NCBI GenBank assembly: GCA_009192285.1
Contig: WBVU01000018.1
Span: 868,001-932,000, forward strand
Reading direction: 5' to 3'
Source of the DNA: Morchella semilibera
Taxonomy: Eukaryota > Ascomycota > Pezizomycetes > Pezizales > Morchellaceae
Length of the DNA: 64,000 nucleotides
The notes beneath the pieces were generated by a model. That model was not told where the DNA came from. It did not search any database and saw only the letters and a program-made list of their open reading frames with translations. Position numbers and translations under genes: made by a program. Below, piece after piece: positions 773 to 26,639 of this stretch (position 1 is the first letter of the stretch; every line of letters starts with the position of its first letter).

Positions 773-2965
773 CTAGTGCCAAAAATATGGTGATTGGACT
801 GGGGTAAAGAAAACGTCGTCATCGTCGTCATCGTCGCTATCGCTACCAGAACATGAGTCTGAATAACCGTTGCAATCGAATGCAAGATCGGAGGGTGAGA
901 TTTCGACGAGCTGCTCTAACGAAGAGATATCGGCATTCTCTTCTCGGTTTTGCTCGAGAGGTGTCTCATCTTCATCTTCAGGCTCTTCGATGATTGATGG
1001 AAGTCGATCTGACTCTTCATAATTGGTGTAGCTGATGGGAAACTGACTCTTTCTTGAGCCTACATCTTCCCACCAACCTGATGCATACCTCTTCTTATTA
1101 GGCTCTAATCCAACAAACATCGTGGATAGGTCTTCATATGATCTCCATGGTGATGGTGTAAAGTTCTCATCGTCGTCTTCATCATCGCTATCGGTATAGT
1201 CGGAGTCTGAATAATCGTAATAATCGAATTCAAGCTCAGATGAGACGTCGGACTGCTCTGGCGAAGAAGGATAGACATTCTCTTCTCGTTTCTCAAGAGG
1301 TATTTCATCTTCAGACTCTTCGATTGATGGAAGGTGGTCTGACTCTTCAAACTTGGTGTAACTGATGGGGAACTTGCTTAGGCTCGAGCCTATATCCTCC
1401 CACCAACCAGATGCGTACCTCTTCTTAAAAACTTCTTGTCCAACAAACATTTTTGACAAGTCTAAATATGAGGCCGATGGCGATGGTTGTATGCAATCAT
1501 CGTCATCATCGTCGCTATCAGAATATTCGGAGCCTGAATAGTCTGAATAACCGTTGCAATCAAATGCAAGCTCGGGTAAGGGGTTGACGGATTGCTCTGA
1601 AGAAGAGATATCATAAATATTCTCTTCTTGGCTCCAGTCTAGAGGGAGATCTTCTTGGTTTTGACAAAGGTGAAGTGATATTTCATCATATTCAGGCTCC
1701 TCTGATATTGAATGAAGACGATCCGCGTTTTCATAATTAGCGTAGCTGATAGGGAAGGTTTGCTCATCTATGCCAACCTCTTCCCACCAACCAGATTGGT
1801 ATCGTTTCTTGATATAGGGTTCTGGATCAAGCGGTACTGCATCATCAGATACCTCAAGTAATGGTGAAAGACGTTCTGACTCTTCGAATTTCGTGTAGCT
1901 GATGGGGAACTTGCTTAGGCTCGAGCCTATATCTTCCCACCAACCAGATGCATACCTCTTCTTATCAGGCTCTAATCCAATACACATCGTGGATAGGTCT
2001 TCATATGATGTCCATGGTGATGGTGTTTGTATCGCTGGGGTAAAATCATCATCGTCATCATCGTCACTACCAGAATAATCGGAGCCTGAATAGTCTGAAT
2101 AGCCGTTGCAATCAAATGCATGCTCGGACGCGGCATCAGTGGGCCGCTCTGGCGAAGAGGCACTCTGTTCTAGACTTTGCTCGAGAGGGATACTTCCTTG
2201 GCTTTGGTGAGGGTCGATATCGGGTATGATCTCATCATCTTCAGACTCCTCTGGTATAGGAGGAAGACGATCCGAGTTTTGATAGTTGGTGTAGCTGATA
2301 GGGAAGGCTTGCTCATCTATGCCAACCTCTTCCCACCAACCAGATCGGTATCGCTTCTTGATGTAAGGTTCTGGATCAAGCGGTACCGCATCATCAGATA
2401 CCTCGAGTAATGGTGGAAGACGTTCTGACTCTTCGAAGTTCGTGTAGCTGATGGGGTAGTAGGTTCTTCTCGAGCCTACACTCTCCCACCAACCAGAGGC
2501 ATACCTTTTCTTGGTAGGCTCTGGTCCCATACACATATTGAATAAGTCTTCATATGATGATGGTTCTGATGATGCTACCGAAAAGAAATCGTCATCGTCG
2601 TCATCGTCATCACCATCATTACTATCAGAATATTCAGAGTCTGAATAATTGATCTGATCGAGCGCAAGCTTGGAGGGGTCGTTGACGGGTTGCTCCGATG
2701 GAGAAGTATATGAAGTGGAGGTAGTACTAGCTGTAGGACTACCACTCCGAGCGGTAGACCCAACCGAAGATCTATTGTCGGCTTTGGGAGTTTCCCACCA
2801 GCTATCGTAAGAAGAGTTGGAGTCGAGGAGGTCACGGAATGACATGGTGGGTTGTGGGGGGGAGTATTCGGTATCGCTCACGAACGGATTCGTCTGCTGA
2901 TTTTGTAGCTCCACCTGGGGAGAAGAGATAGTTTGGGAGGATGGGTTGATCTCGGATGAAGCCAT
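773..2965 (-). CDS. Acidic tandem-repeat protein with KKRYxSGWWE motifs, function unknown
   Basis: Single-exon frame of 730 aa; I do not recognise the family. The protein alternates two block types. One is a Ser/Asp-rich acidic stretch, with runs of 7-9 Asp after a YSDYSGS-like lead. The other is a conserved block containing KKRYxSGWWE(D/E)(V/I)G, then FPISYTNxExSxRLPxxxE. Six clear SGWWE copies are visible, several of them paired as ...LEVSDDAVPLDPEPYIKKRYxSGWWEEVG. A degenerate one occurs near residue 55 (SSYDSWWETPK). There is no signal peptide or membrane segment, so it is probably intracellular. The start is the first Met after a GA-rich leader. The alternation of an aromatic/basic plug and an acidic linker suggests a multivalent binding protein (inference). 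A seventh copy lies out of frame downstream. Confidence 0.7.
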   Translation of the reverse strand: MASSEINPSSQTISSPQVELQNQQTNPFVSDTEYSPPQPTMSFRDLLDSNSSYDSWWETPKADNRSSVGSTARSGSPTASTTSTSYTSPSEQPVNDPSKLALDQINYSDSEYSDSNDGDDDDDDDDFFSVASSEPSSYEDLFNMCMGPEPTKKRYASGWWESVGSRRTYYPISYTNFEESERLPPLLEVSDDAVPLDPEPYIKKRYRSGWWEEVGIDEQAFPISYTNYQNSDRLPPIPEESEDDEIIPDIDPHQSQGSIPLEQSLEQSASSPERPTDAASEHAFDCNGYSDYSGSDYSGSDDDDDDDFTPAIQTPSPWTSYEDLSTMCIGLEPDKKRYASGWWEDIGSSLSKFPISYTKFEESERLSPLLEVSDDAVPLDPEPYIKKRYQSGWWEEVGIDEQTFPISYANYENADRLHSISEEPEYDEISLHLCQNQEDLPLDWSQEENIYDISSSEQSVNPLPELAFDCNGYSDYSGSEYSDSDDDDDDCIQPSPSASYLDLSKMFVGQEVFKKRYASGWWEDIGSSLSKFPISYTKFEESDHLPSIEESEDEIPLEKREENVYPSSPEQSDVSSELEFDYYDYSDSDYTDSDDEDDDENFTPSPWRSYEDLSTMFVGLEPNKKRYASGWWEDVGSRKSQFPISYTNYEESDRLPSIIEEPEDEDETPLEQNREENADISSLEQLVEISPSDLAFDCNGYSDSCSGSDSDDDDDDDVFFTPVQSPYFWH

Positions 2966-5900
2966 GGTTCAACGAGATATAGAGAGATATAGAGAAGAGA
3001 TATAGAGAAGAGATATAGGGTGGAGGTATGGAGGAGATATGGAGAAGAGAGATATAAGGGGTGGTATGAAGAGAGATGGAAAGAGAAGAGAGTGATGGAA
3101 GAGAGTGAGGTATGGAGGAATTTGATGTGAGAGGGGAGATATTGAAGACGAAAGAATCAATTCCGAAGGATTAAATTCCGGAAAGATGAGATGAGATGAA
3201 CGTAGAACCAAAGAAGGTTAAAGTTCGAGAGGATGTTAATAGAGTTTGAGAAGGTGGAAATGATAACCGAAGAAACAAGCTTAGCGAGATATTTAGAAAA
3301 ATATCCGTTATAGCAAGTTTGGTGATTGGGGATGAGGACAGATAACCAATGTGCGTGGGCGAGAAACAACCTCAAAAGGATGAACTCTAGATGTGCAACA
3401 AGGTCGACGCGTCCCAAGACCCCTCAACGCGTAGCGAGAAGTCGAATAGAAGTCTCTAGATTTGCGGAGGAGTGGCGGGAAGATTGTTTCGAGGAAAGTG
3501 TTTGGTTTTTGAAAAAAACTATTCTAGTGCGAGAAAGGCCTTCACAAGAAGGGCAGACTCTGAGGGGTCGAAGTAGTTATTTCGAGAGTAGTTTAAGCAA
3601 CTACAGTAGGTTTGGAGGCTTTGATTGCGTGCCTAAAAGGCAAGGAGGTGGAGTTACTAATTGTTTTGTAGTTGAACTGCTGTATGGTATACGGGTTTTA
3701 TAACGTAGCTGGGTGTAGTCTTTGAATGGGAGGGGTGAGATTAAGAGGGGTGAGGGGAAGAAGTGGGTTATATAGTCGCTAGAAACCCTAAACAACGAAT
3801 GGTTCCATCATCCTTCCCCCCCCCCCCCCTCTTCTCCGGAGAAACTGTGCCGGCCATTGCGCAATTCCCCTAAACACTCCCAGAAGCGAGCACTAAATTA
3901 AGAACATTGGAAGAGCAGGAATAGGTTAAGTTGGAGAACATCGTGAGATTTCTGAGTCCTACGTAATTCTGAATTCGAAAAACTACATAACATGTACCCT
4001 TAGAAATTCATGTCTTCTGTAAAGAAAAAAAAGTGACCGTTCACGCCGTCGGCAATGGTGCTGCTCTCTCTCTCTCGGCTATGAACATTTCCACCCCACT
4101 GATTCCCTCGACCACGCCATAGCTCCGCCAGTAAGGATCTTCACGATCCAATTCATGCTACGCGATCATTCACCCGCGCGCTCGTTAAAGTGCTTCACAG
4201 GCGATCACTCGGTTCTCTACCCTCGCCCCTACACCCCCACAACCCACGCCTTCGCACGCCTCGGCACCGCCAAATGCGCTTCAACAATGGACGGAACAGT
4301 TGGGACCGATAAACCCACATTTCTCTACGCGTATTATAGCTTCACGGGATATCACTCGGCCGTGCATAAAGAAAAAAAACACGTGCATAAAAAAAATTTC
4401 TTTCCCCTTCTTCTTCCCTGAAGCTTGGAATCCCTTTTTCCCTTCCCCTCTTAATTGCGCCCTCGAGTGCCACCCCCCTGAATTCATGAACCCGTTGTAT
4501 TAATACCGTGTCCTCGACCTGTGCCCGCCACGGGGACTATCTCCTGGTGCATTGTACTGGATGGGTCAAGTCGAGTTGAGTCACTCGGAGAATACCTCCC
4601 CGCCCTCGCGGGCTGGTGGGGACAGATCTTGGTTGTGTCATATGTGTTCGTTGAGGTGAGGTGTGCGGCATGGGGTGTCACTCGGTTTGGGTGTCTTGGC
4701 GGGGGGTGGGGGGCATTGGTTCTATCTACGTGAAGTCGCTACCCAAGGTTTTCGCCTGTTACGCCTATTACCTTCCAAGTGTAGAACTACAACACAATTA
4801 ATTATAATGATGAAAACAGAGGTAAACCATTTTGACCCCCGAGAGAAGTTGGTAAAAAGGTGTAATAAAACACCTTAGTGGAGAACCCGTTTCTGGTTGG
4901 GTTTGTATGGGGTTTGCCACTGAATGTACATGTAGGCTTTCACGGGGGGTTGCTTTACGTTACATGTATCCAAAAACCATGCCTGCTTCGTGAGGATGTC
5001 GTATATTCAGGATGTCGGCAGCAGATACCCTCTTTCTAACCCTCATCCTCATCCTCATTCTCATCCTCATTCTATAACCCGCCACTTTTTTTCTCTCTTC
5101 CCCCCCCCCCCTACAGCGCGTCACGCCACAGGAACGAGAATCCCCACGCGCTATGTATGTAGGTCCCAAGTTTACACCCTTCCTAGCTTACCATACCACC
5201 CCCGGTTCTGAACCAAAGGACCACCATCTAGCTAGCAACTGATTGACGTCCGTACCTGCATTGGCGACTTACATATTGCGTGCGATCGATCTCCCCCATA
5301 CATACATACATACAGGATATGTACTTGACATGAATGCTTAGGTTTACGACGACGTCTGTGGAATGCACAGATGGGTGGGTTGGTTGGTTGGTTGGCAGCT
5401 CGCACGTCCTGGGTCTAGAGCTGCCGCTGGGGTTGTTGGGTCTGGATACCAGGCTTACTAGCATAAAAGCTCGAAATCAATTCCCACTACGTAAGCATAA
5501 CCCCCCCCCCCACAAAGAAAGGCTACCAAGTAGATTCGAACCCCCACCCCACGCACCCTCTCTCTCTCCACCATGCTGGTAGCGTTATGTACTCAGTCAG
5601 CTACACACGCCCGCCCCGCCCCACGTACAGCCAGATGTAGTTCCAGATGTAGACTCGATGTAAAAGGACGACAGAATTCTATTTCGTTCCTCCCCGTAAC
5701 CCACAGACCAGACCAGACCAGACCACAGACCAGAAAAGAAAAGAAAAAGCGGACATGCACCCCCCCCGCAACCACTACAAAAGAAAGAAAGGAGGCAGTG
5801 AGAAATAAGTACTGTTATACCATAGCTAGCTAGCTAGATGACCACTGACTGTCCTGTGTGCTGTTTATCGCCTGACCCAATCCCCAACACCCAACGTCCT

Positions 5901-19291: not shown

Positions 19292-19297
19292 ACCAAC
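19292..19297. repeat. Target-site duplication, left copy (ACCAAC)
   Basis: ACCAAC lies immediately outside the left terminal inverted repeat and is repeated directly at 26634-26639 immediately outside the right one. Confidence 0.8.
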
Positions 19298-19329
19298 TAC
19301 GGGGGCACGTATAAACCAAATTGCAAAAT
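19298..19329 (+). repeat. Left terminal inverted repeat, 32 bp
   Basis: Begins TACGGGGGCACGTATAAACC and matches the reverse complement of 26602-26633 at all 32 positions. After it the two ends share a shorter imperfect block (GGCAACGCAACCACCAC against GGCAACACAACCACAAC). Confidence 0.95.
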
Positions 19330-19383
19330 AAAATACAAGGGATTGTGGCAACGCAACCACCACATCAAAGAAACATTGCCGAG

Positions 19384-20150
19384 TTTTTTTCCCCAATGGG
19401 AAGAACTAGACATGCTGCCGAGTCTTTTTTTGTATGGTATTGCTAATAGGGAATGACTAGACATGGTGCCGAGTCTTTTTTTTCCTTATAGGGAAGGACT
19501 AGACATGCTGCCGGGTATTTTTTGTTGTATGGTATTCCTGATAGGGAAAGACTAGACATGCTGCCGAGTGTTTTTTTATATTTATTCCAGATAGGGAAGG
19601 ACTAGATATGCTGTCGAGTGTTTTTTGTGTGGTATTCCTGATAGGGAAGGACTAGACATGGTGCCGAGTGTTTTTTTTGTATGGTATACCTAATAGGGAA
19701 GGACTAGACATGCTGCCGAGTCTTTTTTTATCTGATAGGGAAAGACTAGACATGCTGCCGAGTATTTTTTATATGTTATTCCAGATAGGGAAGGACTAGA
19801 CATAGTGCCGAGTGTTTTTTTGTATGGTATTCCTAATAGGGAAAGACTAGACATGCTGCCGAGTCTTTTTTTGCCTGCTAGGGAAGGACAAGATATGCTG
19901 CCGAGTATTTTTTTTGTATGATTTTCCTGATAGGGAGGGACTAGATATGCTGCCGAGTCTTTTTTTGCCTGCTAGGGAAGGACTGGATATGTTGCCGAGT
20001 ATTTTGTTGTATGATTTTCCTGATAGGGAAGGACTAGACATGCTGCCGAGTGTTTTTTTGTATGGTATTCCTAATAAAAAAGGACTAGACATACTGCCGG
20101 GTTTTTTTTATATGGTACACCTCTGATAAATATGCTGCCGAATATTTTTT
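19384..20150 (+). repeat. Left subterminal tandem array, about 15 units
   Basis: Units of roughly 40-55 bp with core GGGAAGGACTAGACATGCTG followed by CCGAGT, a run of 6-9 T and a TGTATGGTATTCCTGATA-like spacer. I count 15 clear cores plus one decayed one. Substitutions concentrate at a few positions (ACATG/ATATG, GCTG/GGTG). Likely transposase-binding sites and/or a silencing-prone region (inference). Confidence 0.95.
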
Positions 20151-20221
20151 CTTATAGTTGAAAATCCCTGGACATTAGAAACATTGAAAGAATAGTATAT
20201 TTTAATGATAACTGATTTTAC

Positions 20222-22044
20222 TCAAATACATTCTTCACCATCAGTCTCTTCACCTATGTCTTCATACCCTTCACTTTCCGAAACCTCCTCTGGTACAAAT
20301 AAATCCTCCCTTAAATTTGGTGGAATTCCACGTTCTCTGATGATTTGTGCTTCATTACTTACAAAATGATTTTCATTAGGGGGGTCAAGCAGATGTAGTT
20401 TGGGGTTTAAGTTACCCTTTGCTATATGGTGCTTTACATGACTCCTGAGAAAACAATACATGACAAAGTGTGATCTTTGTCCGTTCTCCTCTCGACCTTC
20501 ATAATTAGCTGGTAAAGTATATCCCCCTCTAATCAATAATCTTTCACACCAAAGTAACGTGGTTTCTGGTAAATATATATCATGATCTAGAGAGATTATT
20601 AATCAATTAGCACTAAATCCAGAAAATCGAAATAAGGAATAGTAATTAATTACCATAGCCTGTAACTCTATTTTCGAGAATCTGCAGTTTGGCAATTGAA
20701 GGAATAGAAGCATAGTTTTTAACATTATCTGGTGGATAAAAATAATTATAGTACGGCACACCAGTTGGTAAGTTGGGTCGGTTTTTCTGTGCTCTAATTC
20801 TATGAGAATTCCAGTTATCTACAAACTGGTGTAGTTTGTTCCGAATTATTGGCATATATATGTATAATAAGCTGATAATATCGTCGTCTGACCCATCGAA
20901 GAGATTTGAGTTCTGTAATTCGACAAAGTATCTCTATTCCAATTGTTAGCTATATGTCTGTTTAGAGTGAATGATATCCATACCTTCCACTCGATTTCCT
21001 TGCTTTTAGATAATTGTGCCCACCATGACTCAATCCTGACATTTTTGGTTGATGTCCCATACATGAAGGTATCAGAGAGGGAAATTTCTGAATCCTCCTC
21101 TTTATGTAGCTCCCAATGTCCGTCGGCAATCATCATAGTTTCGGTGCCTCTATCAGCTCTTAAAAATTTAGGGAATATATTATACTCCCTAACAGTTTGA
21201 AGATACTGGCTTAAAACACTAATACCAGTCCTTGCAGAAACTCCACAATAAAACCAGGTAATAAAACGTGAGTAGGCATCGATAGCAGCATAAATCTCAA
21301 TACCAAACATCTCAAGCTTCATATGCCCATCTATAGACCAACACCAGTTGGGTCCTGGACAAGAGAAATATGCATGTTTTCGGTTGACATCTTTAGTCCT
21401 AGCATCTACTCCTGCTGGGTCAACAATTTTCAAAGCTTTTCGGATCCTCTCACTTGTAATAGAAATTGATTAGCTGTCAACAACTCTTCAAATAGTAAAA
21501 AGACCATTTCTTACGCTGAAGCTACAACACCTAAGCTCCTGAGATGTACCCATACAGCTCTATGACCCGACAATGTTATTTCTCCCTTTAGCAATTCTTC
21601 CTCAATAATTTTCTTAAGGTAATTGTCGGCATTTTTTATGTCTCTAGTAAGAGTCTTTCGTCGCATTCCCATTGAATATCTTATTCTTATTAGGCGTCGC
21701 ATTTCAATCTGAAAACCGTGAATCTTGAGTACCTATACTAATATTAGTTTACAGTAGATTATAGGATTAATATTATATACCCGTAAAATCTGAACATCAC
21801 TTAGGTGCTGTTTCCAAAAGAGATATGCAAGCTGTATCCTGAGCTCAGGGCAATCCTGAGATTTTGTATTTTTCGTAAAATCCCACCTCTTCAGTTGAGC
21901 AGCCAAAGAACGTGGTGAGCAGTAAAATTGAAGTTTTTGGAGTTCATCTAAAACCTCCTTTAGCGTATGGTCTTGCTCTATATAAAGCTCATGAATAAGA
22001 TTCCGGTATTGATTGAAAGGTAAACGTGGAGGTGCCATTGACAT
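20222..22044 (-). CDS. Transposase: N-terminal Clr5-like domain plus DDE integrase-type core
   Basis: Five exons, 22044-21781, 21732-21515, 21452-20984, 20933-20654 and 20586-20222, with short consensus introns, give 531 aa without an internal stop. Residues about 5-55 (APPRLPFNQYRNLIHELYIE..TLKEVLDELQ) resemble the fungal Clr5 DNA-binding domain. A second helical region runs LRVLKIHGFQIEMRRLIRIR. The integrase core has the triad D202 (WCWSIDGHMKLE), D261 (FLRADRGTET) and E302 (NVRIESWW), a DD40E spacing. It ends with the family-typical MPIIRNKLHQFVDNWN and RAQKNRPN segments. The C-terminal tail is acidic. All catalytic residues are present. The family is widespread in fungal genomes as integrase-core proteins. 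It should bind the terminal and subterminal repeats of its own element (inference). Confidence 0.92.
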
Positions 22045-22247
22045 TCAGGTGTTGCTATGAATAATGTTTAAGCAAAGAAAAAAGTGAAAAGTGTGATTAC
22101 TTATTAATTTTCGACAATAAAACATATATGTTATTAGCCCTAAAATTGTTACCGTTGTCCCACAAAGTACCAACAAAACTTACACACAAATATACATCGC
22201 TTAAAAAGTATAGTAGCTTTTTAATTATCAACATACAGCATCACAAT
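22045..22247. promoter_or_regulatory. Divergent intergenic promoter inside the transposon
   Basis: About 200 bp of AT-rich DNA separates the start codons of the transposase (-) and the SUMO-motif gene (+). The two genes must share this bidirectional control region. No specific site was identified. Confidence 0.5.
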
Positions 22248-23751
22248 ATGGACGAAAAACCAGCTGGCCGATTCTGCTCTCAGAGTTTGGAGGGTAGAGA
22301 ACATAAACCTTCTCCAGATTTAAGATATGAATGCTGTGGAAAGTTAGTTCCGGCTTCACTCAAAATCGATACTGCTATTCATTCGGCTACTACATCTCAA
22401 CATACAGCTAATTACAATCCAATCAAACAAAAATTAATCAAAAGAAAACGAATGAAGGGCAGTCAAGGCAAGTCCTCACTTGTTGCACCTATTATCGATC
22501 TCATTTCTAGCCCATCGGATTCGGAAAATGAAAGACAGAAGCATGGAGAACACAGCATAGGATATAAACATACAGGGGGGGGACTTATCAAAAATGAATC
22601 TCACTTTTCTCATACAAATTCATGCAAAACAGGTCAGTTACGGTCTATTTCCCGGATAATCATTGAAGCTGCCCGGCAGAAATCAATTAAATCGTCACAA
22701 GCAGAAGCAAACCAAAAAAAATTCGGAAGCAAATTTGGACTCTCAGATCCTCCCCCGGCAATGGCAAAACCAACTATGAAATCAGATGGATTTAAAGTCT
22801 CTGATACCCGAAAGCTATCAATTTGGTTTAATTCCACTCCAACTAGTTCACCAAAAACCGGTTCTACATATTGGAGCGAATTTGTTCAAGTTGGTAAGTA
22901 TTTCCTATAATTAATTCACTATTTTCAAAATACTCATTTTTATTAATAGGTGTTTCCTCAAAGCTATTTTCTGACTTGCAAGAACCACTTTCGGGCCCCT
23001 TGCATGAATATATTAAAACAGAATTATTAGAAAAATCCACTGCATGGATTGAGTGGTGTAAACGCAGACCAAAACCAACTGACAAAAAAAGAACCTTATC
23101 TTATGTTCTTGCTACTGGTTTTCATTTAAAGGAAGGGCCCCATTACTTAGAGGTTATGGAGCATATACCTTTGACAGCTGGAGAATTGCTAAGCAATTTT
23201 CCTAATGGAACTGGTTCTGGGGCAGGCCGGATCTTTATCATTGTTGAGGAATTCTATGATGATGAGGATAAAGAGGATATCTCGATACCTTCGTTGGGGA
23301 AGCAAGGACACAAAAGACAAAGATGTATACTTTCATCCCAGAAATAGATTTATTTAACATCTGCTAATAATTATATAGCTTTAGACAGTTCACTCGAAAT
23401 ACCAGTACCAAAGATTAAAAAAGAAAGGTTCAGAGGTAGAACTATCAAAAAGGAGATCAAGCAGGAGCCGATTTTAGAAGAGAGGGAGGGGGAAACGAGT
23501 TCGATAGGTTCTGCTAGTGATTTTACTGAGCATGAGACTCTCAGTGATGAGGAATTAGAGGGTATTTTAGGTGAATGTTTGAAGGTAAATTAAATTATCG
23601 TACCCTTATTATTTCTTATTAATACTAATTAGCTATTAAGTTGTCACCACCCATAATTCAGGAAAGAAAGGTAAAAGAGGCGGAATTACCTTTTGCAGAT
23701 CCACCGGCGGAAGGAACTAGATCTAAGACGAGGGGAAAAACTGCTATTTAA
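22248..23751 (+). CDS. Transposon-encoded orphan protein with SUMO-interaction and sumoylation motifs
   Basis: Four exons, 22248-22893, 22950-23324, 23379-23584 and 23662-23751, phases 1, 1 and 0, give 438 aa. I know no homologous family. Visible features are a basic nuclear-localisation-like KRKRMK (65-70) and a classical SUMO-interaction motif PIIDLISSPSDSENE (hydrophobic core at 82-86, then Ser/acidic). A globular-looking central part runs from WSEFVQVGVSSKLFSDL to YVLATGFHLKEGPHYLEVMEH. Three psi-K-x-E sumoylation consensus sites cluster at IKKE 353, IKKE 363 and IKQEP 367, followed by an acidic region and a basic tail. The start at 22248 avoids an AT-rich leader; an upstream in-frame ATG exists at 22128. 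It is divergent from the transposase and convergent with the demethylase gene. A role linking the element to SUMO-dependent chromatin is inference. Confidence 0.82.
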
Positions 23752-24280
23752 ATTACTTTATATTTATTTTTTAATCTCTATTATTTTTTCGATCTATAAC
23801 TATACAGCTTTGTAGGATAATATTTAAGCAACATATCTATGTTTTTGATATGTCAATAATCATGATTTATTACTCTTACTATTTTAGAAATTTACTAGTA
23901 GCCACCCCTAATTCCCTTCAAACAAAATTTGTTATAGTGAGACGAATTTTCGAAATATTGCTACAGGACTTTATATTGATATATTTATACACTATATATA
24001 TGATTCTGCGGTGTCAACGATCCCATATTATGACTTCTATAATTTCCGAATTTCTGTACTGGTCCCCCAATATAAAATATATAGTAACCTTAAATTATTT
24101 ATATCACAATAGGCTTTTAAAATATTGGTTTGAGATTTGAATAATATATATTTGTATACTATATATCAGTTTATATAATACCAAATATATCAAATTTTGA
24201 CTTCCAAAAATCCCGAATTTTTCAACCTAATATATATGCTATCTCAAGTATGGCTAGGTATACTGTCATACAGAACCGAT
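23752..24280. other. AT-rich intergenic segment between convergent transposon genes
   Basis: The 529 bp between the stop codons of the SUMO-motif gene and the demethylase gene are very AT-rich (ATATATA tracts near 23970-24240) and presumably hold both 3' ends. No gene was seen. Confidence 0.55.
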
Positions 24281-25778
24281 TTAAGCCTTCTCCTTACCCT
24301 TTCCCTTATCAGCCTTCTTTTCCTTCTTCATTGCCTTCTGAAGGTCCTGCTCCTGCTTTTTGTCCTCCAAATATTTCTCAATAAGCTCAAAATCCAGAAT
24401 GATTGGCTCAGTTGGGGAAATATCACAGTTGCAAGGTTGATATTTTTTGGCCTCAGGGATCCAGTCTTCAGTGGCGAAATTCATTGCTTCTGCAAGATTC
24501 CAGCCACTATTAATACCAGAATGGTAAGCTCCAGGCCAAACAATGATCATTTCATTCTTTTCCTGAATGAATTGGTGACAAGCATAACCATATTGAGACC
24601 AGAGTTCAGGTGTAATAGGTGGCTGGGAAAGCACAAAACCCTGATGGCGAAGAGTCTGTGGGCAAGAGGTAATATCAAGCTCTACAGTAGCTGTTCCCTT
24701 AGTTAATATAAAATTCGGAATTTATAAGCTATGAGTATTTACCTTTAGATTCAGCAACAAAAAGCTGCATAGAATGTCCAGGAATAACATGCCAGATCTT
24801 GGCTGCACCATCAAGGACAGTATTGGCGGAATAGCAATGATAATCCTCTACATGCCAGGAAAAGGCAGTACCTGGAGTACCAAAATAAACATAGGGGGTA
24901 GTAATTCCCGGAATTACAGGAAGACCTGGAGTCAGGAGCAAGTTCCAATCTGGGTCATCAAAAATTGGTGTCCAACTCTTGCCCATATTGATCAAAGAAA
25001 CTATATTAAAGCTGTTAGTAAATTCGATTTTGATAAAGTAGTAAAGATAATACCTTCAGTATCAACCCCATAGTTCCTAACTTGAGATGAAGCCTTATTT
25101 TTTGAGGATTCCACCTCCTTTGCAATCTTCCCCCAGAACTCATCCAAAGTACCAATTAATTGATAGTCCATCTTTTTCCCAACCATTTGAGTCTGCCAAC
25201 GAGACATAGGAAGCTTTCCAGGTAAGGACGCAACTGTATAAGCCTTTCCTCCATAGCTGGTAGTGTAAGGGAGCTCCTCAAACACTTGCTTCCTGACTGC
25301 AAGATTGATTTGGGACAAAGGTTTAGAAATATGATTCCATTCCTTTCCTTCAACTATAATTGGGAGCTTAAGCTTCACAGCTCCATAAAACCGCCCAAGC
25401 TCTTGTAGATATTTTAATAAGGTTGGAAACTCCTTAAGGCCTTGAATTGTTGGGATAATAAGTGGAGGTTGAGTTTTATCAGGGTGCTCAATTCTGGCAT
25501 GGGTTTCAGGAATCTTTTTGAAACCTTGGCGGGGGTAGGTAGGAATTTCAGCAGTTGATTCAGTGTCTGGAAGTATGATTGGATTGTTTGCTATTTATAT
25601 ATTAGTATATCAAAAATCCGATTTTTAGAGGATGGAAAGTACCAATCTTGAGGACTCTCTGCTTATGGTAGTAAAGAAGTTTCCTAGCTGCTGCTTTTGG
25701 GTCTGCAGCTCTAGATAGGGATGTTTTATTCTTCATAGTTTCGAAGGTATTATTGATAAAGACAGCTTGAGAAGGCAT
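24281..25778 (-). CDS. KDM4-type JmjN/JmjC histone lysine demethylase-like protein encoded by the transposon
   Basis: Four exons, 25778-25643, 25590-25054, 25000-24743 and 24681-24281, give an intact 443-aa protein. A JmjN-like segment lies at about residues 88-122 (IPTIQGLKEFPTLLKYLQEL, then GRFYGAVKL). The JmjC core follows, with TPYVYFG (Tyr equivalent to KDM4A Y177), iron ligands H274 and E276 in FSWHVEDYHCYSAN, the 2-oxoglutarate Lys K292 in AAKIWHVIPG, and the third iron ligand H364 in GAYHSGINSGWNLAEAMNFAT. The KDM4-specific zinc site is conserved too: C317 and H323 (SCPQTLRH, same six-residue offset as C234/H240 of KDM4A) and C394/C396 (PCNC). KDM4 S288/T289 are replaced by Ala/Met. 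The protein ends in a Lys-rich tail and has no PHD or Tudor domain. KDM4 enzymes remove methyl groups from H3K9 and H3K36. Activity here is inferred, not shown. Confidence 0.93.
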
Positions 25779-25869
25779 GGTGTAGTGAGGTTATTGACTC
25801 TTGTTTGTTGTGTGGTGATGGTTGATGTAGAGGTGAGGTCTAGTCCTGCCTGTTTTGGTAGTTAAGTAG

Positions 25870-26560
25870 GGTAACTTTACAAAAAACCCGGCAGCATGTC
25901 CAGTCCTTCCCTATCAGGAAAAAAAAAACTCGGCAACATGTCTAGTCATTCCCTTTCAGGAATACCATGCAAAAAAGGGCTCGGCACTATGTTTAGTCTT
26001 TCTTTATTAGGAAAAAAACTCAATAGCATATTTATTAGAATACTATAAAAAAAAAAACTGGGCACTAAATCTAGTCCCTCCCTATCAAGAAAAAAAGACT
26101 CAGAAAAATATCTTTCCTATTAGGAATACCATATAAAAAAAACTCGGCAACATGTCTAGTCCTTCCCTATCAAGAAAAAAAAAAAACCCGGCAGCATGTC
26201 TAGTCCTTCCCTATCAGGAAAAAGCCTGGCAACAGGTCTAGTCCTTCCCTATCAGGAAAAAAAAGACTCGGCAGCATGTCTAGTCCTTCCCTATCAGGAA
26301 AAAAAAACTCGGCACCATGTCTAGTCCTTCCCTATCAGGAAAAACCCCGGCAACAGGTCTAGTCCTTCCCTATCAGGAAAAAAAAGACTCGGCAGCATGT
26401 CTAGTCCTTCCTTATCAGGAAAAAAAAAAACCCGGCAGCATGTCTAGTCCTTCCCTATCAGGAAAAAAAACTCGGCAGTATGTCTAGTCCTTCTCTATCA
26501 GGAAAATAACTCAATTATACAAAAAAACTCGGCAGTATATTTATTAGGACACTATAAAAA
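25870..26560 (-). repeat. Right subterminal tandem array, about 15 units
   Basis: Units are the reverse complement of the left-array unit: CTCGGCAGCATGTCTAGTCC, then TTCCCTATCAGG and an A run. Most spacers are shorter than on the left, about 40 bp between cores. Those nearest the demethylase gene (25885-26130) are the most decayed, and the outer ones (26145-26510) are nearly identical. Confidence 0.95.
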
Positions 26561-26601
26561 ACAAGTAGCACAATATTAGTTGTGGTTGTGTTGCCAAAGT
26601 C

Positions 26602-26633
26602 ATTTTGCAATTTGGTTTATACGTGCCCCCGTA
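26602..26633 (-). repeat. Right terminal inverted repeat, 32 bp
   Basis: Reverse complement identical to the left repeat over 32 bp, ending CGTGCCCCCGTA. Confidence 0.95.
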
Positions 26634-26639
26634 ACCAAC
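26634..26639. repeat. Target-site duplication, right copy (ACCAAC)
   Basis: Direct repeat of 19292-19297. The local sequence ACCAACCAACC could also mimic a duplication, so the length of 6 bp is likely but not certain. Confidence 0.75.

Follow-up and report, generated by a model that had tools for sequence, protein, structure and literature searches.

The window analysed here is a stretch of 64,000 nucleotides from the morel Morchella semilibera (contig WBVU01000018.1, positions 868,001 to 932,000). At 19298-26633, exactly where an initial annotation of this DNA had placed it, we found a complete IS3EU-type DNA transposon that carries a gene for a KDM4-like JmjC protein (J) together with a transposase gene (D) and an orphan gene (O). 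The terminal inverted repeats (TIRs) at 19298 and 26633 are identical at 32 of 32 bp (TACGG..CCGTA), and a 6-bp target site duplication (TSD), ACCAAC, stands on both sides of the element in the flanks GAACCAAC / ACCAACCA. The perfect repeats and the duplication claimed by the initial annotation were thus borne out, as were its three intact multi-exon genes: on exon models drawn by eye from the sequence alone, D (531 amino acids, aa), O (438 aa) and J (446 aa) can each be joined at GT..AG introns into a single open frame. The transposon is well-formed and, judged by its sequence, autonomous. Its features are the following.

19292-19297: left copy of the TSD, ACCAAC (flank comparison)
19298-19329, plus strand: left 32-bp TIR, beginning TACGGGGGCACG (TIR comparison, genome pattern search)
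19398-20117, plus strand: left subterminal tandem array with a unit of ~51 bp, holding 15 copies of the 25-bp motif GGAAGGACTAGACATGCTGCCGAGT at up to 6 mismatches (repeat and motif search)
20222-22044, minus strand: D, IS3EU-type DDE transposase, 531 aa; exons 21781-22044, 21515-21732, 20984-21452, 20654-20933 and 20222-20586; D202, D261, E302
22248-23751, plus strand: O, orphan, 438 aa; exons 22248-22893, 22950-23324, 23379-23584 and 23662-23751; C-H-C-C N-terminus, SIM-like IIDLISS, PsiKxE cluster (SIM, SUMO-interacting motif; PsiKxE, sumoylation motif)
24281-25778, minus strand: J, KDM4-like JmjC protein, 446 aa; exons 25643-25778, 25054-25590, 24743-25000 and 24281-24690
25881-26506, minus strand: right subterminal tandem array with a unit of ~42 bp, holding 13 inverted copies of the same 25-bp motif at up to 6 mismatches (repeat and motif search)
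26602-26633, minus strand: right 32-bp TIR, same sequence as the left (TIR comparison, genome pattern search)
26634-26639: right copy of the TSD, ACCAAC (flank comparison)

The JmjC gene and its recurrence

The transposase, D, matched the Pfam families rva_4 (integrase core, 3.7e-32) and Clr5 (3.5e-11), and its candidate DDE triad consists of D202, D261 and E302. IS3EU transposons have TA..TA ends and a TSD that is usually 6 bp long (PMC10045372, in part), and the fungal IS3EU families that carry TET genes end in TAYGG..CCRTA with 6-bp TSDs (PMC12730594, in part). Since the TACGG..CCGTA ends of the morel element and its 6-bp TSD fit this description, we assign it to the IS3EU superfamily; the termini TACGGGGG..CCCCCGTA agree with both TA..TA and TAYGG..CCRTA, and the TSDs of relatives on contigs C1, C21 and C5 are also of 6 bp. 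The TSDs of the C9 and C19 elements are 7 bp long (GGACGTA and GTACGGG), and those of the other members 6 bp.

In J, Pfam recognised a JmjC domain (2.1e-22) and no further domain above the cut-off. The closest structures in the PDB were those of Rph1 (3opt, 3.7e-29), then 2w2i and KDM4D. All ten residues that we checked are kept in J, namely H274/E276/H367, K292, Y261, N284 and C320/H326/C397/C399, and these H/E/H, Lys, Tyr, Asn and C-H-C-x-C residues align with those of Rph1 and KDM4D. From the KDM4 structures we take H274/E276/H367 to bind iron, K292, Y261 and N284 to line the 2-oxoglutarate side and C320/H326/C397/C399 to bind zinc. The region of J that corresponds to the JmjN domain of Rph1 gave a collinear but non-significant match (-2.6 bits), suggesting at best a JmjN remnant.

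The possibility that J is the only KDM4 gene of its host was considered and rejected. The host has a KDM4-like gene at C2:1838568, with a core 60% identical to Rph1, and a KDM5-like gene with a PHD domain at C2:4222472. An unusual third host JmjC open reading frame (ORF) of 482 aa lies at C19:2297793-2298149; it carries HAE..WPLAYHQG motifs, sits on a long branch far from KDM4 and KDM5, and is 25-34% identical to the transposon J proteins in the core. In a tree of nine sequences, the three J proteins found in transposons grouped in one clade (100/99), and the host KDM4-like and KDM5-like proteins, the C19:2297793 protein, Rph1 and KDM4D all fell outside it. This agrees with the separation from host genes that the initial annotation had proposed as a check. 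The placement of the clade among the KDM proteins is unsure because of long branches. No J homologue was confirmed in viral contigs.

Genome-wide searches were made in one assembly of 23 contigs (56,756,124 bases), to which the labels C1, C5, C17 and so on refer. With J as the query, strong matches were obtained in the window, on C17 and at C19:1813k. The weaker matches were the three host genes, and a single short one was found at C1:5506040 (E 0.0045). The C17 copy is the sole other trace that we found of the transposon family of the window, and although broken it also contains J. When 30 bp of the TIR were searched for with at most 3 mismatches, three sites were found and none in the control; these were both ends of the window element and the right end of the C17 copy. 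On C17, a stretch that runs from J up to the right array matches the window element at 91.5% nucleotide identity and is followed by ~17.7 kb of other DNA and then by a right end with an identical TIR and four copies of the motif; no left part was recognisable. Comparison of this decayed copy with the window gave a ratio of nonsynonymous to synonymous substitution (dN/dS) of 0.44-0.59. The substitutions of the C17 copy comprise 73 C>T or G>A changes and 36 in the reverse direction, with a CpA context in 24 of the 73. Classical repeat-induced point mutation (RIP) of this copy is unsupported, as the C-to-T excess comes without a CpA preference. Direct repeats of ~0.6 kb (82% identical) flank the J relict at C17:470676-480235 and are perhaps the long terminal repeats of a nested retroelement.

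The second recurrence, on C19, belongs to a different TIR family. This element is 1781 bp long, has IS3EU-type TIRs identical over 40 bp and a TSD of 7 bp, and contains a truncated J. Over 347 codons, the J proteins of the window and of C19 are 54% identical, and their codons are 69% identical at positions 1 and 2 and 38% at position 3. Codon-position identities are given because synonymous divergence is saturated in this comparison and in those of D. That third positions are saturated while the protein is still 54% identical indicates purifying selection on J. The transposases of the window and of a C1 element diverged to a similar extent (54% identity in protein, 67% at positions 1 and 2 and 41% at position 3, over 519 codons), and from this we infer that selection on the protein sequence of J has lasted roughly as long as the divergence of the transposase families.

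The initial annotation had proposed a KDM4-like JmjC passenger in an integrase-type transposon and had asked whether the gene recurs. Both points held, with IS3EU as the superfamily and with recurrence in the decayed C17 copy and, truncated, in the second TIR family on C19. It had tied a one-off capture to J being absent from all other copies or being the host's only KDM4 gene; J is present in other copies (C17 and C19), and a separate KDM4-like gene exists in the host. The codon pattern and the repeated occurrence identify J as a maintained, recurrent passenger of the transposon and not a one-off.

Related elements and the third-gene slot

A genome search with the transposase yielded 13 loci, of which eight, the window included, were looked at; C10, C2:2819405, C1:2368238, C2:2766296 and C3:2143775 were left out. 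A third gene was found at six of the eight: one JmjC gene, three TET/JBP-like genes and two copies of one glycosylase-like family. By tblastn, no J was found in the C1, C21, C5 and C9 elements. The matches on C9 and C10 have identical coordinates and scores and those on C21 and C22 nearly equal coordinates, which suggests duplicated or haplotypic stretches.

The TET/JBP-like genes are on three contigs. The C1 element (C1:5438958-5445281, TSD GGTAAG) encodes D (54% identical to that of the window), O and, in the position of J, a 402-aa ORF with a Tet_JBP match of 0.0076. The C9 element (C9:31405-37811) encodes D, an O-like protein and a third ORF with a Tet_JBP match of 2.1e-5, and at C5:72.6k D adjoins a similar TET-like ORF (Tet_JBP 0.0017), with no TIRs found within 8 kb. 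These TET-like genes score under the Pfam cut-off of 34.9 bits. The C9 and C1 proteins both match loci of the same genome that score above the cut-off, C6:1734k and C7:461k; the C9 protein also matches C21:913k and the C1 protein C11:1610k. Since a PDB profile search with the TET-like alignment gave nothing relevant, the assignment rests on the sub-cut-off Pfam matches and the links to stronger loci. Genome-wide, 13 TET/JBP-like matches were obtained at E of at most 0.01, with 4 above the Pfam cut-off, and 11 of the 13 do not adjoin a listed transposase. In the C9 transposase (ORF 2683-3543 within C9:31001-39000), the first catalytic Asp appears to be replaced by Asn because the protein reads WSINGH where the window, C1, C21 and C5 copies read WSIDGH.

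The elements at C21:2986481-2992939 and C5:1842521-1849019 (TSDs GGGCTG and CACGAC) are members of one family, each with D, O and one further gene; in the C5 copy this third gene is intact and encodes 440 aa. The third protein starts with MPE and has WGK, DRNR and NGIG..EIL..IHPE stretches, a start and an order of motifs that we take to be those of Fpg/Nei enzymes. In a PDB profile search, all 20 matches at E of at most 5 were Fpg or NEIL1, the best E being only 0.26, and in phmmer 16 of 19 matches at E of at most 10 were NEIL1 or Fpg, the best being NEIL1 at 0.056. One of four rows matched NCBIfam Fpg (8.7e-4), and one of four matched Pfam H2TH (0.013), ranked under PV_NSP1 (9.4e-4) and NFACT_N (0.0065). 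Comparison with E. coli MutM and Nei by hhalign gave an E of 0.0064 at a probability of 5.9%, and a genome scan with H2TH found only a host gene on C3 and missed this protein. It is probably an Fpg/NEIL-like glycosylase, the least certain of the slot assignments. Relatives of this gene occur at C16:924362-925294 and C1:5076297-5077091 with no transposase match adjoining.

Like the transposase, O recurs. A genome search with O gave four places (window, C1, C21 and C5), each adjoining D; the C9 relative was missed by this search and recognised by eye. In an alignment of the O proteins of the window, C1, C5 and C9, of which the last three were joined from pieces, a C-H-C-C N-terminus and a hydrophobic IxLISS-like core are common to all. 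Comparison of O between the window and C1 gave a dN/dS of 0.20. The initial annotation had described O as an orphan with SUMO motifs, and the sumoylation sites stood: the window protein has 5 PsiKxE sites where 1.2 are expected, a number reached in 7 of 1000 shuffles. The second part, the SIM, was weaker than claimed, as the 2 SIM-like sites are no significant excess over the 0.57 expected (P 0.11).

Tandem repeats near the ends are a further feature of several of these elements. The 25-bp motif occurs 28 times in the window element at up to 6 mismatches (15 forward copies on the left, 13 reversed on the right); at that threshold it was found nowhere else in the window, nor in the C1, C21, C9 and C19 elements. 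Genome-wide, at up to 3 mismatches, 27 sites were found and none in the control, 23 of them in the window element and 4 on C17. In the C1 element a repeat of 101 bp lies close to the left end, the C21 and C5 elements have short repeats near both ends, and the C9 element has a 175-bp repeat between the third gene and the right end; no such repeats were seen in the C19 element.

As to the setting, a minus-strand gene for a protein with AAA and PEX6 domains has its presumed start at window 18998, and the element is inserted 300 bp upstream of that point. A minus-strand ORF of 731 aa at window 773-2968 is built of repeated acidic stretches and KKRYASGWWE-type units. An Rfam scan of the window gave nothing at gathering scores.

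Proposed role of J and its alternatives

We think it probable that this IS3EU transposon, autonomous by sequence, keeps a KDM4-type JmjC dioxygenase as a passenger that undoes host silencing of the element. By analogy with KDM4, J would remove repressive histone lysine methylation (H3K9me and/or H3K36me) from the chromatin of the element. O, with its Cys/His N-terminus and SUMO-type motifs, may guide J or the transposase to the subterminal repeats specific to the family or to heterochromatin rich in SUMO; either O or D could bring J to the repeats, and the transposase would then gain expression and access. By analogy with the VANC proteins of VANDAL transposons, we hypothesise that the 25-bp repeats are a putative targeting address. 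The scheme would resemble the sequence-specific anti-silencing by VANC, but with an enzyme of the element's own. The idea is strengthened by the TET/JBP-like genes that occupy the same slot of related elements.

Several observations weigh against this proposal. The window holds the only intact J that was found in the genome. On C17 the gene contains stops and its catalytic Lys is replaced, while the C19 J stops short of the second iron-binding His and its element showed no transposase. The match on C1 (C1:5506040-5506159) covers a J-like N-terminus only, of ~50 residues (MPSQAV..SRAADPKAA..; residues 1-13 and 15-53; tblastn E 8.7e-7 within a 3.1-kb locus), and neither a TIR, D, O nor other J exons were recognised in those 3.1 kb. 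Within J itself, core identity to Rph1 and the KDM4-like proteins is no more than 34-36%, and the substrate of J therefore cannot be read from the sequence. Pfam detected no JmjN domain at E of at most 1, so that of the JmjN/JmjC pair named in the initial annotation the JmjC half was confirmed and the JmjN half was not. No Pfam domain was found in O at E of at most 1. The PsiKxE enrichment is modest and non-significant in the C9 protein (5, 5, 3 and 2 sites in the window, C1, C5 and C9; shuffle P 0.007, 0.003, 0.028 and 0.12), and SIM-like sites by our own rule (2, 2, 0 and 1) exceed chance in none of the four. Finally, two of the eight transposase loci have no recognisable third gene: the transposase at C1:1864501-1871500 (38% identity) and the degenerate one at C1:5209001-5217000 both lack a TIR pair of the window kind and, among ORFs of at least 90 aa at the former, any such gene; the latter gave a J match of E 0.66 over 37 residues only. 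The short J-like N-terminus at C1:5506040, without its JmjC part, could be a relict or a shared leader.

J might oppose silencing without demethylating; for instance, it could compete for chromatin proteins or recruit them, an activity that has been reported for Epe1 of fission yeast. Its remoteness from the proven KDM4 enzymes would suit such a role. We nevertheless regard this as rather unlikely, since a purely non-enzymatic protein would not need the iron, 2-oxoglutarate and zinc residues, and those checked are all kept. It is unlikely that J is a passenger acquired by chance, through a single capture of a host KDM4-like gene, that brings the element no benefit. The decayed, truncated and fragmentary state of the C17, C19 and C1:5506040 copies beside a single intact one would be expected of such a passenger, but J is present in two diverged TIR families with saturated third positions and 54% protein identity, its ten checked catalytic and zinc residues are intact in the window, and in related elements this slot is occupied by other enzymes with a similar purpose.

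JmjC enzymes include non-histone hydroxylases, and O was found only beside D, so J could have as its substrate a non-histone protein encoded by the element or the host, for instance the transposase or O, and thereby control transposition directly. We judge this quite unlikely: J is not a fixed partner of D and O, as the C1, C21, C5 and C9 elements carry both with other third genes and, by tblastn, without J, and a zinc site of KDM4 type suggests that J belongs to the histone demethylase branch. Very improbable is a slot whose theme is repair or protection from mutation (C-to-T hypermutation, for example), in place of relief from transcriptional silencing; TET-like and Fpg/NEIL-like enzymes act on DNA bases and the C17 copy has its C-to-T excess (73 against 36), but we know of no direct action of JmjC enzymes on DNA bases, and 24 of the 73 changes are in a CpA context, without the preference expected of classical RIP.

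Removal of host silencing marks by J thus remains our preferred explanation, and the interpretation given in the initial annotation is, as a whole, partly supported. For the lineage we would go further only tentatively: it is possible that these IS3EU elements share an interchangeable eraser slot (JmjC, TET/JBP-like or Fpg/NEIL-like), often with their own near-end tandem repeats, and that this forms a modular anti-silencing toolkit in which histone marks and DNA marks are attacked at different steps and O serves as a common targeting subunit.

Comparison with known systems and implications

The initial annotation had pointed to the TET/JBP genes linked to KDZ transposons as a precedent. A closer precedent exists: fungal transposons that carry TET/JBP genes include IS3EU elements, also in Tuber indicum, and are known in Pezizales, the order of the morels (PMC12730594, in part). 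The TET genes in transposons have been argued to remove silencing marks, a function not experimentally validated (Kojima 2025; PMC12730594, in part). These IS3EU elements share with the morel element the superfamily, the TAYGG..CCRTA ends, the 6-bp TSD and a 2-oxoglutarate dioxygenase passenger; they differ in that the passenger is a TET/JBP gene accompanied by an alpha-kinase gene, whereas J and O accompany the transposase in the morel (PMC12730594, in part). The term JmjC does not occur in the main text of that paper. HarbingerS and MuDR transposons of Phytophthora encode SET histone methyltransferases (cited in PMC12730594, in part). They too are DNA transposons that took up a histone-modifying enzyme, but a writer and not an eraser of histone methylation, and in other superfamilies and hosts.

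KDM4-like genes are also known from other selfish DNA. The endogenized giant viruses of Amoebidium contain many KDM4-like genes with a JmjC domain only, in a host with a canonical KDM4, and the authors read them as counteracting host chromatin silencing (PMC11244446, in part). As in the morel, where J has at best a JmjN remnant, selfish DNA carries KDM4-like enzymes cut down to the JmjC domain beside a canonical host KDM4. These are giant virus insertions in a protist, whereas the morel element is a TIR transposon with its own transposase in a fungus, and neither an orphan like O nor private repeats are described for them in the available parts of the source (PMC11244446). In Arabidopsis, each VANC protein binds tandem repeats that belong to its own VANDAL family and diverge rapidly, and acts as a sequence-specific anti-silencing factor; VANDAL and the morel element both combine an element-encoded protein with family-specific noncoding tandem repeats (PMC10398659, in part). 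VANDALs are MuDR elements, unlike the morel element, which encodes an oxygenase. VANC is a DNA binder and, to our knowledge, is not known as an enzyme. Compared with KDM4 and Rph1 themselves, J has the same JmjC core with H-x-E..H, Lys, Tyr and Asn and the C-H-C-x-C zinc site; it differs in its low core identity, its separate clade, a JmjN domain that is degenerate or absent, and its place in a mobile element.

Among the titles and abstract beginnings of the literature matches listed, none reported a DNA transposon with a JmjC or histone demethylase gene; subscription papers and Repbase Reports lay outside this scope, and priority is uncertain. The morel element is best read as a variant of the known anti-silencing by selfish DNA, as in TET-bearing transposons, VANC and giant-virus KDM4 genes, with a histone demethylase-like gene in a DNA transposon. 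If this is true, the element would be a direct test case for a selfish element that attacks histone-based silencing, and would offer a compact demethylase together with family-specific DNA repeats as its candidate address. It would also suggest that selection swaps eraser chemistries within one slot, and interchangeable erasers may possibly be a wider rule in selfish DNA.

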